Of a stretch of 23,384 nt of DNA, positions 9,504 through 16,454 are shown one piece after another. The position numbers and the translations under genes are program-made. The stretch comes from a virus. The notes under the pieces were generated by a model. That model was given only the letters and a program-made list of their open reading frames with translations, had not been told where the DNA came from and searched no databases. The stretch's first letter is position 1; each line of letters opens with the position of its first letter. The stretch spans positions 1 through 23,384 of the IMG/VR virus record IMGVR_UViG_3300030108_003501; one strand, given 5' to 3'.

Positions 9504-11138
9504 ATGGAAGATAAATTTGTTAAAATATTTGATGGATTAAAAAGAGATTATGGTTACGCCGAAATTAGCAACGGATACAAAGACACAACAACAGGTAAGT
9601 TTAAAGTAAAACATGGTTGGGCAGGTAAGCCTTTAACCAAATCTGATTATGTCGACCATCTCTCTGGTAAAAAATCTATAGGAATCCAACCTTGTGATGA
9701 CAATGGCATGGTTAATTTTGGTGCCATAGACATAGATTCAAAAGCATATCAAGATTTTAGTCCTAGAAAATATTTAGAAATAATTCAAAAGAATAGTCTA
9801 CCGGTAATACCAGTTAAATCTAAAAGTGGTGGACTACATTTATACATACACACAAAAGAAAAAGTCAAAGCTAGTTTTTTAAGAAATTTTTTAGACAAAC
9901 TATTATATACATTAGAGTTAAATCCAACAACTGAAATATATCCAAAACAAACAGAACTTGGAACAGGGCCTGATGGAAGTTTTACAAACGGTAATTTTAT
10001 AAACCTACCATACTACAACAAAACAGAAAGAGTTGCATTAAATTTTGATGGTCAAGAATTTTCTTTTGATCAATACATACAAGTTGTTGAAGCTAATTTA
10101 AAATCAGAAAAAGAATTAAACGAATTTATAGATGCACATATAAGTAAAATTTTAATGGGTGGTGCGGAAGAATTTAACGATGGCCCACCATGTTTACAAG
10201 CTATATCAAAAACAATTGATGATAGTAACAAACTACCTGATGAGAGAGATCGATTCTTATTTAACTACATGGTCTTTTGTAAAAAGAAATATCCTGATCT
10301 TTGGGAGAAAAGAGTTTTAGAAGGTGCAAGAAAATATATTTTATATGATGAAGAATGGGGAGACAAAAAAGTTTTAGATAAAATAAAATCTTGGAGAAAA
10401 CCAACTGCAGGACATCTTTGTGATCAAGATCCTATTAGAAATTTTTGTATAAAATCAGAGTGTGCAAAAAGACAGTTTGGTTACATGTCAGATAAACAAA
10501 AGAAATTTCCACAGTTATCAGCTTTGATTAGAATAGATTATCAACCAGAGCCAGAGTTTAGATTTACAGTTCATTTTAACGATAAACAAGATGGTGAGAA
10601 AAGTAAACAAGTGGTGGCTAGAGATGTAAATTATTTAATGGACATGGAAAAATGTAGAAGACTCGTAGCATCACACACACCGATAGCACCACCACGAATA
10701 AAGCAAGATGAGTTTCAAGTTATCATAGAAAAATTAAAAGAGACTGAGACTGTGCAACCACCTCCAGCTGGTACTTCTCCAAAAGAAATATTACAAAAAT
10801 ATTTAGAAGAACATATTCATGGAGTCCCTGCAATTAGTGCTACGTCATTTAGTAGTGGATCTGTTTTAAAAGAAGATGGCTTTGCATATTTTACTATGGA
10901 AGTATTTTTTAATTATTTAAAAAATAAAGAATGGAAAATGAAATATGAAAAAACTGGTAGGATGTTAATAGAAGAATTTAAAGCAGAGCTAGGATACTTA
11001 AAAAGATATCCTAAAAAAGATACAGATAAAAAATCACACAACCCAATACGATGTATAAAAATACCTATGTCTTTTTTTGAAAGAGATGAGGAGGATGTTG
11101 AGATTATAGATATGAAAAACAAAGGGGACATACTTTGA
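9504..11138 (+). CDS. Archaeo-eukaryotic-type primase (AEP superfamily, TOTE-like)
   Basis: The protein would make primers for the phage polymerase. AEP signatures are visible in order: the metal-binding DxD in AIDIDSK (D76, D78), the nucleotide-binding SGGLH motif (108-112), then EIYPKQT (from E144) and NGNFINLPYYN (163-172), which resemble the TOTE-type primase/polymerase domain. A second domain (about 225-325) carries four well-spaced cysteines, C230, C306, C315 and C320, which could bind an Fe-S cluster or zinc as in primase accessory domains. The C-terminal 150 residues are unassigned and may be a helical or winged-helix domain. The gene follows a structured leader without a ribosome-binding site, and its end overlaps the helicase start by four bases. 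No DnaG- or T7 gp4-like gene is seen in the window. Confidence 0.8.
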   Translation: MEDKFVKIFDGLKRDYGYAEISNGYKDTTTGKFKVKHGWAGKPLTKSDYVDHLSGKKSIGIQPCDDNGMVNFGAIDIDSKAYQDFSPRKYLEIIQKNSLPVIPVKSKSGGLHLYIHTKEKVKASFLRNFLDKLLYTLELNPTTEIYPKQTELGTGPDGSFTNGNFINLPYYNKTERVALNFDGQEFSFDQYIQVVEANLKSEKELNEFIDAHISKILMGGAEEFNDGPPCLQAISKTIDDSNKLPDERDRFLFNYMVFCKKKYPDLWEKRVLEGARKYILYDEEWGDKKVLDKIKSWRKPTAGHLCDQDPIRNFCIKSECAKRQFGYMSDKQKKFPQLSALIRIDYQPEPEFRFTVHFNDKQDGEKSKQVVARDVNYLMDMEKCRRLVASHTPIAPPRIKQDEFQVIIEKLKETETVQPPPAGTSPKEILQKYLEEHIHGVPAISATSFSSGSVLKEDGFAYFTMEVFFNYLKNKEWKMKYEKTGRMLIEEFKAELGYLKRYPKKDTDKKSHNPIRCIKIPMSFFERDEEDVEIIDMKNKGDIL

Positions 11139-12568: not shown

Positions 12569-12810
12569 CAACAAAAGATATATTTGAGGAAGCATTTCCT
12601 CAATACACTCAAATAGGTGGGAATCACTATACTAAATTTCCTATTCAACCATATGAGTTTATTTCTAAAAACAATCTTTCGTTTTTTCAAGGCAACGTAA
12701 TTAAATACGTTTGTCGTTATCAACGAAAGGGAGGTGTTGAAGATCTAAAAAAGATAGTGCACTATTGTCAATTAGAAATGTTAAAAATGAAAGATGCAAA
12801 GAAAACTTAA
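12565..12810 (+). CDS. DUF3310 family protein
   Basis: The 81-aa product carries the DUF3310 signature: IGGNHYTKFPIQPYEFI followed by GNVIKYVCRYQRKGGVEDLKK. This small family is widespread in tailed phages and often sits among replication or nucleotide metabolism genes. No activity is established as far as I know, though it is sometimes loosely labelled nucleotide kinase-like. ATG overlaps the helicase stop (ATGA), and its own end overlaps the methyltransferase start by 17 bases, so all are translated from one message. Confidence 0.9.
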   Translation: MTTKDIFEEAFPQYTQIGGNHYTKFPIQPYEFISKNNLSFFQGNVIKYVCRYQRKGGVEDLKKIVHYCQLEMLKMKDAKKT

Positions 12811-13942
12811 AGTATTAGATTTATTTTCTGGCATAGGAGGATTTGCATTAGGTTTAGACTCTACAGGAATATTTGAGACTGTAAAATTTGTAGAGAAAGA
12901 TAAATACTGTAAGAAAGTTTTACAAAAAAACTTTCCTAACATACCGATTGAGGAGGATATAAAAGATGTTAAAGGAAAAGAAGGAGACGCAGATGTCATT
13001 GTGGGAGGATTCCCCTGCCAACCAATGTCAGTCGCAGGAAAAAGAAAAGGAACAGATGACGACCGCTATCTCTGGCCAGAAATGTTTAGACTCATTAGGG
13101 AGATCAAACCCCAATTCGTTATTGGGGAGAATGTGCAAGGAATTATTAACATCCAAAACGGCATGGTACTCAGACAGGTGCAAGACGACTTGGAAAGTGA
13201 AGGTTTCGAAGTCCAATGTTTCCTTATTCCAGCTTCAGGCATCGGTGCTTGGCACCAGAGGTACAGAGTCTGGATTGTGGGCCACTCCGAACACAATGGA
13301 TCACTTGCCTCCAAGATCAAAAGAAGGGACACTGAAACTACAACAAGGACACAGGAGGGGACGAACACGACCGGCAAACCTGCGAGAACAAGTGGATCCA
13401 GAAACAATGAGAATGTATCCGACACCGAGATCATCGGGACAAGAGAATCCAGAAACATTAATCAAGAGGAAGGGGATGAAAGCAGCAGCTCAACACAATC
13501 TAACAGCAGCAGTGAAGATGTATCCAACACCAACAGTGGGATCAGAGGAGGGTGGAGAACAATCGGACAGAGTGGAGAGAACAAAGTCTGGAGGTTTTAT
13601 TCTAAGGAAGAAGAACAAACCACAGATGACTTACGGAGCAAAACTATCAGACGCAATGCTTTACTTGGAAAAGAAAAAATTATTTTACAGTCCAACAACG
13701 AACGACGGGAAGAACGTGACGTTTCCGATCAGTCAGAAGAACAGAACATCAATAGTAGGAGACATGATACGAATGAACAAGAACAAACCTGGTGGCAAAT
13801 TGAATCCGACCTTTGTGGAATTCCTGATGGGATTTCCTATGAATTGGACAAAGACAGAGCCAACAGAATCAAAACTCTTGGTAACGCAATCGTCCCACAA
13901 ATTGCAAGAGAAATAGGATTAGCTATAAAAAAAGTTTTATGA
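12794..13942 (+). CDS. Cytosine-5 DNA methyltransferase (Dcm-like)
   Basis: It transfers a methyl group from S-adenosylmethionine to C5 of cytosine in a specific site, probably protecting phage DNA from host restriction. Motif I VLDLFSGIGGFALGL is at residues 7-21, catalytic motif IV GGFPCQPMSVAG has C75 as nucleophile, motif VI is IGENV, motif VIII QRYRVWIV is near 155, and motif X LGNAIVPQIAREIG is near 362-376. Residues about 170-330, where the target-recognition domain should lie, are low-complexity and rich in S, T, N, E and R. Local GC is about 50% in one line I counted, against about 30% in neighbours. A second frame runs through most of the gene. It overlaps DUF3310 upstream and PolA downstream (ATGA). 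Confidence 0.93.
   Translation: MQRKLKVLDLFSGIGGFALGLDSTGIFETVKFVEKDKYCKKVLQKNFPNIPIEEDIKDVKGKEGDADVIVGGFPCQPMSVAGKRKGTDDDRYLWPEMFRLIREIKPQFVIGENVQGIINIQNGMVLRQVQDDLESEGFEVQCFLIPASGIGAWHQRYRVWIVGHSEHNGSLASKIKRRDTETTTRTQEGTNTTGKPARTSGSRNNENVSDTEIIGTRESRNINQEEGDESSSSTQSNSSSEDVSNTNSGIRGGWRTIGQSGENKVWRFYSKEEEQTTDDLRSKTIRRNALLGKEKIILQSNNERREERDVSDQSEEQNINSRRHDTNEQEQTWWQIESDLCGIPDGISYELDKDRANRIKTLGNAIVPQIAREIGLAIKKVL
12993..13916 (+). CDS. Overlapping gene nested in the methyltransferase, 307 aa
   Basis: This frame runs inside the Dcm gene in another phase and is open for over 900 bases. Its start at 12993 (MSLWEDSPA) has a near-ideal site, AAGGAG at 12981-12986 with a six-base spacer; an upstream in-frame ATG at 12966 has none. 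The product has ordered features: ISGQKCLDSLGRS, SLLGRMCKELLTSKTAW, GTRGTESGLWATP, then repeats of an aromatic-x-T/S-P unit (LWATP, MYPTP twice, FYSPT), and GGKLNPTFVEFLMGFPMNW near the end. From memory, products with GLWPTP and GG-LNP-WVEWLMGFP-GW patterns turn up in phage data, overlapping Dcm-type genes. The function is unknown. Both frames may be real; the alternative is that it is a by-product of the Dcm codon pattern. Confidence 0.55.
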   Translation: MSLWEDSPANQCQSQEKEKEQMTTAISGQKCLDSLGRSNPNSLLGRMCKELLTSKTAWYSDRCKTTWKVKVSKSNVSLFQLQASVLGTRGTESGLWATPNTMDHLPPRSKEGTLKLQQGHRRGRTRPANLREQVDPETMRMYPTPRSSGQENPETLIKRKGMKAAAQHNLTAAVKMYPTPTVGSEEGGEQSDRVERTKSGGFILRKKNKPQMTYGAKLSDAMLYLEKKKLFYSPTTNDGKNVTFPISQKNRTSIVGDMIRMNKNKPGGKLNPTFVEFLMGFPMNWTKTEPTESKLLVTQSSHKLQEK

Positions 13943-15803: not shown

Positions 15804-16454
15804 ATGGCTTATTTAAATGCAAACATACCAGTAGAGTACGCACAAATTAGAAGGGAGTATTTATATGATCTTAAAAAACATCATGGAGAAGTTGAAGACT
15901 GTATTATCTTTGGTGTTAGCTGTATTACAGGTCGTGCTTTATTATTTCATGCTATTATGGAAAACGGCGCAATCTTTTATCGCCTCCCAATTAGCGCGTT
16001 TATTCAAAGAGGATTTAAAGTTACCGACGTACCACAAAGAAGACTTGATGAACTTCAGCTCTGGAATTCTTTTAGTTATTATCCTTCTGTTCATTGTTGG
16101 GACATTCTAGAATCACAATCTGGTAAATACATTGGTAAAGATAAAAAATGGCATCACGGAAAATATTTATTTACTGTTGACTTTGCACATCCAGAAGCTA
16201 ACATACTAGACACTGATCATTCAGAGATACCGCACGAACATAAGTGCGCTCACATACTTGCTTTAAACGATGGCAACTATGCAGCTCAACCTAACAACAG
16301 ATTAATATGGGACATACCGTCATTTACGGTAAAGGATCAAGTACCTGATTGGAAGGTTCAAACTAATTATTGGAACGTAGAAGATACAGGACAATGGAAA
16401 ACTGAGGACACTGATAATTTCTTCTACGAGATGGAGGAGAAGAAACATGATTAA
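15804..16454 (+). CDS. Conserved marine phage protein of unknown function, 216 aa
   Basis: The product is a soluble, aromatic- and histidine-rich protein with no membrane segment. Visible blocks are FGVSCITGRALLFHAIMENG, LPISAFIQRG, a tryptophan-rich centre LQLWNSFSYYPSVHCWDIL, then HPEANILDTDHSEIPHEHK and a C-terminal part with LIWDIPSFTVKDQVPDWKVQTN. AAGGA lies six bases before the start, two bases after the PolA stop. I recognise the sequence type as a frequent neighbour of DNA polymerase in marine phages but know no function. A DNA metabolism role is inferred only from position. A second frame inside it (15865-16110) encodes a hydrophobic peptide. Confidence 0.8.
   Translation: MAYLNANIPVEYAQIRREYLYDLKKHHGEVEDCIIFGVSCITGRALLFHAIMENGAIFYRLPISAFIQRGFKVTDVPQRRLDELQLWNSFSYYPSVHCWDILESQSGKYIGKDKKWHHGKYLFTVDFAHPEANILDTDHSEIPHEHKCAHILALNDGNYAAQPNNRLIWDIPSFTVKDQVPDWKVQTNYWNVEDTGQWKTEDTDNFFYEMEEKKHD

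Follow-up and report, generated by a model that had tools for sequence, protein, structure and literature searches.

The nested frame as a gene

Does a long reading frame that stays open inside a phage Dcm-type methyltransferase gene encode a protein of its own, and if so, what has that protein to do with the methyltransferase? The question is raised by a 23,384-base virus record (the whole stretch analysed, hereafter the window), in which an ORF of 307 amino acids (12993–13916) lies open, in frame +1, within a Dcm ORF of 382 amino acids (12794–13942). The Dcm product is here called alpha and the nested product beta, and all parts of the pair lie on the plus strand. The original prediction had described a second frame open for more than 900 bases, starting with AAGGAG-N6-ATG and containing LWATP, MYPTP twice, FYSPT and a GGKLNP...FLMGFP block, and every one of these elements was found in the sequence. 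The raised local GC was borne out as well (0.453 at 13201–13800 vs 0.28–0.41 in the other 600-nt segments listed), as was the low complexity of the Dcm recognition region: 84% of alpha residues 173–332 (13310–13789) are S/T/N/Q/E/R/D/K/G.

The flanks of the methylase pair match Pelagibacter phage HTVC027P, which carries two small hypothetical genes, and no methylase, between the small gene that follows its helicase gene and its DNA polymerase A gene. DNA polymerase A is the next gene after the pair in the window. Two other genes of the window were noted in passing. The primase at 9504–11138 matched the archaeo-eukaryotic primase domain of TOTE conflict systems (PF22548, 1.7e-14) and, strongly, phrog_21866. 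The product of 15804–16454 matched PHROG 3704 'ferredoxin' (1.1e-73) and no Pfam family; the HTVC027P gene in the equivalent place, directly after polymerase A, is annotated as PurM-like, so the naming may be inconsistent.

The number of stops in the +1 frame was compared with that obtained when synonymous codons were shuffled within the Dcm gene, a permutation that preserves both the protein and its codon usage. The results showed a mean of 11.4 stops and a minimum of 3 in 20,000 shuffles, against none observed. When the codon usage of four other window genes was used, the mean was 21.8 and the minimum 11 in 5,000 shuffles. For 78 further distinct loci the expected means were 7.6 to 14.8 stops, and at no locus did any of its 1,000 shuffles come out free of stops. 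In five other genes of the window the +1 frame stayed open for 58 codons at most. The explanation that the open frame is a by-product of Dcm protein composition can draw on phage Dcm genes that lack the repeated units (cassettes) of beta described below and still have longish +1 runs, 141 codons in Streptococcus phage P0091 and 168 codons in Javan95; since such genes reach 168 codons, openness of the N-terminal part of beta alone is weak evidence. However, this explanation is contradicted by the permutation test, the flip in codon phase and the conserved start (see below), and we give it almost no credence; the permutation and codon-phase tests rule out a chance or compositional origin of the +1 frame.

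Viral contigs were matched by the nested protein (180) and by the Dcm protein (143), and the best 80 of each, many of them shared, were used. A relative of each protein stood in the +1 relation in 159 of the 160 sequences compared, the exception being HTVC027P (L003), which has no methylase and was fetched by DNA similarity. The original prediction would have been refuted by loci in which the Dcm frame is conserved and the nested frame carries frequent stops, and this was not the case: in 75 of the 80 loci fetched with the Dcm protein, beta was open through its motif-IX-like block and alpha through motif X, and the other five contigs end earlier. Among the marine virus contigs examined, the only interruption before the motif-IX-like block was one stop in L047. 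Stops inside the beta match were present in 19 of the 80 Dcm-fetched loci; in the eight inspected, all lay past the block and beta ends earlier than in the window, which implies that the tail of beta is not conserved. After L001 and L002 (methylase records of a phage collection), truncated loci and identical copies had been dropped, 79 distinct complete loci remained, the window included. In 24 of these (L005, L027, L131, L138 and others) the beta stop is lost and the frame runs 82–514 nt beyond the alpha stop. L001 (KT997847, 2291–3219) has a frameshift near the start of alpha and a stop in the first part of beta, and its annotated genes are fragments of the two; a real lesion and an assembly error cannot be distinguished.

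The beta frame probably begins upstream of the start first proposed. Its first ATG (12966–12968), which gives a product of 316 amino acids (12966–13916), lies one codon past an in-frame TAA (12960–12962) and behind GAGGAGG, this whole signal (12950–12968) being placed within alpha codons. An ATG one codon after an in-frame stop was found at the beginning of beta in 78 of the 79 loci, and a Shine-Dalgarno-like core upstream of the assigned beta start was likewise present in 78, compared with 5 for alpha. The AAGGAG-N6-ATG noted in the original prediction does exist at 12993, and the 12993 ATG itself is also common; however, AAGGAG precedes it in only 17 of the 79 loci, which makes 12966 the better start and the earlier choice probably 27 nt too far downstream. 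For alpha, the start codon nearest to that of the window was ATG in 37 loci, TTG in 32 and GTG in 10.

Codon phase was examined in 39 disjoint pairs of relatives, with the recognition region taken as alpha codons 166–345. The results showed that the third alpha position evolved faster before beta (35:2 in 37 informative pairs), in the motif IV–VIII part (33:2) and in the motif X part (38:0). In the recognition region, by contrast, it was the first alpha position, which is the third position of beta, that evolved faster (34:3, p 1.2e-7). The third-position rate of alpha was 0.087 in the motif IV–VIII part vs 0.210 before the overlap. Sliding windows placed the switch to beta at about 13,290–13,340, just past motif VIII, and the switch back to alpha at about 13,855, just past the GGKLNPTFVEFLMGFPMNWT block of beta; one window in the motif IV–VIII part (codons 111–125) also read as beta. 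At the protein level, identity in the recognition region was 0.61 for alpha and 0.74 for beta, with beta higher in 38 of the 39 pairs and alpha in none; it was 0.95 and 0.90, respectively, over motifs IV–VIII, and 0.94 and 0.71 in the motif X part. Judged from these codon positions, both frames are under selection, and the dominant frame flips at motif boundaries. Constraint on both frames of homologous loci, for which the original prediction had proposed a test, is seen in the flip to beta in the recognition region and in the lowered third-position change of alpha in motifs IV–VIII.

That the coding signal changes frame at exactly these places would also fit a single chain made through two programmed frameshifts, +1 after motif VIII and −1 back before motif X. 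We consider this highly improbable, because beta has its own conserved ATG and Shine-Dalgarno core (each in 78 of 79 loci) and because the first 100 residues of the +1 product are conserved. Moreover, only −1-type sites having been searched, the majority consensus at the return point (13841–13877) contained no X XXY YYZ heptamer, and the only such heptamers at the first switch (13241–13349) were not conserved at the 90% level. The nested frame is confirmed as a gene, and the proposal that two proteins are made from this locus is supported.

Contents of the two products

Alpha (12794–13942) was identified as a cytosine-C5 methyltransferase by PF00145 (3e-55), TIGR00675 (1.2e-49) and PHROG 363, and a Foldseek search with its model returned HhaI and HaeIII. 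PCQ (74–76, motif IV), ENV (112–114, motif VI), R156 and R158 of QRxR (motif VIII) and G363-N364 (motif X) were invariant in both alignments, so that alpha satisfies what is expected of a C5 methyltransferase, namely a PF00145 match together with PCQ, ENV, QRxR and GN. It falls short of a complete single chain, which should unite motif IX with an ordered target-recognition domain; the IX-like block lies in the other frame. The sequence match to HhaI covered residues 5–162 only. The PF00145 profile aligned alpha over its full length (1–324), so Pfam by itself shows no gap. In the alpha model, confidence was high over most of the catalytic part and in the C-terminal helix; residues 174–331, nearly the whole of the low-complexity linker, had a pLDDT of about 30 and are predicted to be disordered. 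Motif X and the C-terminal helix (13865–13939, ..LGNAIVPQIAREIG..) follow, where the codon phase is back in alpha and pLDDT is about 90 for residues 371–380.

The profile search of beta that had been suggested gave a match to PHROG 1008, 'DNA methyltransferase' (E 9e-27), indicating that beta-like proteins are already in phage family libraries; the family name is silent on any partnership with an overlapping gene. Beta had no Pfam match and no NCBIfam model hit it. Among the Pfam matches listed for 34 beta relatives, neither PF00145 nor any other methylase family appeared at E up to 10, a search in which the HMMER filters drop most weak matches. The PDB yielded no sequence match to beta and an empty profile search up to E 10, and the AlphaFold model was poor (pLDDT 49.5). 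With no Pfam or PDB match and a poor model, a small-domain fold is not demonstrated for beta. Its N-terminal domain (residues 1–103, 12966–13274) overlaps alpha motifs IV–VIII, and conservation and codon phase indicate constraint on both frames there. Towards the C-terminus, the block GGKLNPTFVEFLMGFPMNWT (13791–13850) contains invariant or near-invariant columns, is placed in the +1 frame in relatives too, and resembles motif IX of single-chain enzymes (RSLSVREAARIQSFPDNF, RILSVRECARIQGLPDSF, RKLTPRECWRLQGFPDWAF). We call it motif-IX-like, an assignment resting on its position and a short pattern.

The absence of any Pfam or PDB sequence match and of a confident fold leaves room for beta to be a separate protein, such as a regulator, a DNA mimic or another anti-restriction factor, that overlaps the methylase by chance and remains outside the enzyme. 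This we regard as very improbable. Beta includes the motif-IX-like block, its place is precisely that between motifs VIII and X of alpha, and it was found together with this type of alpha in the loci examined; where alpha would need a recognition domain, its sequence is predicted to be disordered. In addition, the +1 ORF of phages Datway (Mycobacterium) and Andrew (Arthrobacter) also carries motif X, as expected of a piece of a methylase. Of the roles that the original prediction offered, a partner or specificity factor of the methylase is supported as the best reading. For a free-standing protein the anti-restriction role appears not to hold, since beta contains the motif-IX-like block and sits where the Dcm protein has no ordered recognition domain; it remains plausible only as a role of the whole enzyme.

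We therefore favour, at a probability of about 0.87, a two-subunit cytosine-C5 DNA methyltransferase encoded by overlapping genes, with a beta subunit that carries exchangeable cassettes and motif IX; assembly, activity and the recognition of one target per cassette are inferred parts of this reading. Alpha would bind AdoMet and supply catalytic motifs I–VIII and motif X. Beta would be translated in the +1 frame, beginning at a start codon of its own within the alpha gene, and would supply the small domain, composed of an N-terminal part that docks on alpha, four cassettes in this window, and motif IX. The alpha reading of the cassette region would then be a disordered linker that must stay open for translation to reach motif X.

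Cassettes of the proposed beta subunit

Between its N-terminal domain and the motif-IX-like block, beta is built of successive units, mostly some 28–63 residues long, most of which open with xPTP or ATP. In the window the order is A-C-B-F: cassette A (LWATPNTMD...NLREQVDPETMR, 13275–13412), a putative target-recognition module, is followed by cassettes C (MYPTPRS...LTAAVK, 13413–13517), B (MYPTPTV...LSDAMLYLEKKK, 13518–13679) and F (LFYSPTTND...NKNKP, 13680–13790). The 79 betas were split by a hand-made xPTP/ATP pattern and clustered at 50% identity; some split pieces were shorter than 18 amino acids, counted units had at least 18, and the cassette count depends on the pattern. This gave 43 cassette clusters, 33 of them present in two or more loci, and 55 distinct orders among the 79 loci. 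The marine betas had 2 to 7 units each. As far as aligned sequences can tell, cassettes differ in number and order among loci, and the +1 arrangement is seen again in distantly related phages. A multi-TRD enzyme is defined by a tandem series of interchangeable units between motifs VIII and IX, a definition that the window fulfils by sequence only.

The contig represented by L016 and L095 differs from the window by 2 mismatches in the first 525 aligned columns and contains three added units, inserted as 102, 165 and 117 nt; all are multiples of three, and both frames stay open. In the window, a 28-nt repeat (79% identity) is common to the starts of two cassettes and is, by inference, a possible recombination substrate. 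Phage C75C1, the backbone of which is distant, has a unit 61.9% identical to cassette A, and the same cassette is also visible in the Paenibacillus loci L160 and L169. When cassette and backbone DNA identity were compared in 4347 pairs from the 20 largest clusters, the cassette was more alike than the backbone by over 0.10 in 168 pairs and less alike by over 0.10 in 1077. The top examples listed of the more-alike pairs all involve L073 or L074, and this measure of cassette transfer is for that reason only suggestive.

Cassette order is partly constrained, A coming first where present and F, J and K standing towards the end, as might be expected if beta belongs to the enzyme and its cassettes jointly form one composite recognition domain for a single target. 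This remains possible and cannot be dismissed, but we think it unlikely, given that the number of cassettes varies from 2 to 7 in the marine set and that only one cassette seems to be present in the short betas found in phage Lc-Nu (L173) and in L166. On the reading we prefer, with exchangeable cassettes, each would probably confer one target sequence, and the repertoire would change through the gain, loss or swap of whole cassettes. If the cassettes move in frame as units open in both frames, the set of methylated sites could be rewritten while the catalytic half stays nearly identical, and with one target per cassette the phage DNA could be shielded from several restriction enzymes of the host. 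That the subunits assemble and dock, that the enzyme is active, that each cassette has its own specificity and that the whole serves against restriction is in every case an inference from sequences and models, without protein-level or methylation data.

Occurrence in other phages and comparison with known systems

All 20 of the distant relatives examined (Paenibacillus, Lactobacillus, Bacteroides, Porphyromonas and others) had motif IX in the +1 frame with respect to motif X; one frame was interrupted or masked in at least L001, L163, L170 and L175. Most of these relatives were found through a beta match, so this proportion is not a frequency. Two scans of viral contigs were also run with the alpha N-terminus only, taken from two distant members that have beta, and 80 of 219 and 80 of at least 595 matches were kept. 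Motif IX in the +1 frame, together with a run open for 120 codons or more, was found in 67/80 and 74/80 (141/160); the remaining loci were 6 truncated contigs with an open +1 run and 13 others, including broken or frame-exchanged copies. Frames that are broken, masked or rearranged occur in some relatives overall (L001, L047, L163, L170, L175, L192 and several others).

Ten phage records were hand-chosen from 60 spread evenly over 1,741 alpha-like records. Four of these methylases had cassettes in a +1 ORF, and six were ordinary, cassette-free enzymes that carry motif IX in the main frame. The break points of the four differ: that of Hades is as in the window, Neville has motifs IX and X in the alpha frame, and Datway (L376, a Mycobacterium phage) and Andrew (L381, an Arthrobacter phage) have both motifs in the +1 ORF. 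In Neville (L374, a Gordonia phage) only the cassette is in +1. Datway, Andrew and Neville share the cassette type, and their differing split points are possible steps in the origin of the overlap. In Streptococcus phage P0091 (L373, 1458–1877) a second overlapping 'DNA methyltransferase' is annotated, probably spuriously, since the +1 ORF lacks both a cassette and motif IX, and the main frame by itself encodes a complete enzyme in a single chain.

In cells of the one phylum searched, PHROG 1008 is rare, being found in 2 of 199 genomes, one of them the centre of that search (G001). A scan of cell genome contigs gave 9 loci. The Paenibacillus polymyxa plasmid pAP1 (L169) has two motif-IX-like blocks in the beta frame (2221–2304 and 2434–2517), the second past a stop, which looks like a tandem duplication. 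The Paenibacillus macquariensis genome (L192, 1363–2375) contains a degenerate version of the pair, in which beta is broken by a nonsense codon and a frameshift. A segment of a Lokiarchaeota MAG (L163, CP070831, 3001–3150) is 68% identical to the C-terminus of the window's beta and adjoins a stretch of N; it is possibly marine phage sequence within that assembly.

The record of Paenibacillus phage Tadhana annotates both genes. In seven loci picked by beta match, from phages of Salmonella, Vibrio, Acinetobacter, Pseudomonas, Mycobacterium and Escherichia and from a Citrobacter plasmid, solely the alpha frame is annotated, with a +1 run of 202–298 codons. We consider it probable that there is a large and often unannotated class of phage C5 methyltransferases in which specificity resides in a shuffling cassette array in the +1 frame of the catalytic gene, the other reading of the array being a tolerated disordered linker. 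If so, some of the proteins recorded publicly as phage 'DNA methyltransferases' would be only half of an enzyme: the annotated frame lacks a recognition domain, and the missing half lies in the +1 frame, often unannotated, as in these seven loci and phages Hades and Neville. Prediction of specificity, and expression, from the annotated frame alone would fail for such genes. Should each cassette have one target, the arrays could be read as lists of those host restriction sites from which phages have needed to escape, and the code linking cassettes to targets would be directly testable. The locus would also be an unusual overlapping gene, a modular and rearranging array laid over another coding frame.

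M.EaeI and M.EcoHK31I are both two-polypeptide C5 methyltransferases, and the small polypeptide of M.EcoHK31I is encoded in an alternative frame within the large one. The window shares this last feature, its small polypeptide lying in the +1 frame with both frames under selection. M.EcoHK31I, the experimental precedent for such an enzyme and termed naturally split (PMC3439449), has motifs I–VIII and X in the large polypeptide and motif IX in the small one, with the predicted recognition domain placed in the large subunit (PMC3404938). The distribution of motifs is the same in the window, as far as motif IX can be assigned by a short pattern and position. However, the large subunit of the window appears to be a disordered linker where M.EcoHK31I is predicted to have its recognition domain, and the putative recognition cassettes, the coding signal and the conservation are in beta. 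Either the published placement in M.EcoHK31I needs another look or the family of the window is different in this respect. A plasmid tblastn search with two betas returned 3 and 12 records, none labelled EcoHK31I among the matches listed.

In M.AquI the catalytic and recognition halves are on two proteins (PMC3404938), and the window enzyme would be split across two proteins likewise. Unlike M.AquI, where the small subunit has motifs IX and X, the window has motif X in alpha and does not qualify as M.AquI-type; phages Datway and Andrew do have AquI-like splits with cassettes. Another case of a protein concealed in a different frame of a phage methylase is the out-of-frame HNH endonuclease of the ShiLan element (PMC11855218). 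That element is a homing insertion, whereas the hidden gene of the window has methylase-like motifs and lies over the recognition region.

For 48 Paenibacillus phages, methyltransferases are mentioned without comment on overlap in as much of the source as was available (PMC6070908). Among the titles listed from the open-licence literature, a scope that leaves out most subscription journals, none dealt with overlapping phage C5 methylase pairs with cassette arrays. Two-polypeptide C5 methylases, tandem recognition domains and a gene hidden in a methylase are each known; their combination was absent from the titles listed. The C5 methyltransferases of Bacillus phages SPR, phi3T, rho11 and H2 have tandem recognition domains in one coding sequence or polypeptide (PMC12707154, PMC8936443), and like them the window has several tandem recognition units, if these are read correctly, on a phage methylase. 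Unlike the window, an SPbeta-type relative (L375) is a single ORF without any +1 run of more than 45 codons. By analogy, the enzyme of the window resembles an M.EcoHK31I-like split combined with recognition arrays like those of the Bacillus phages.
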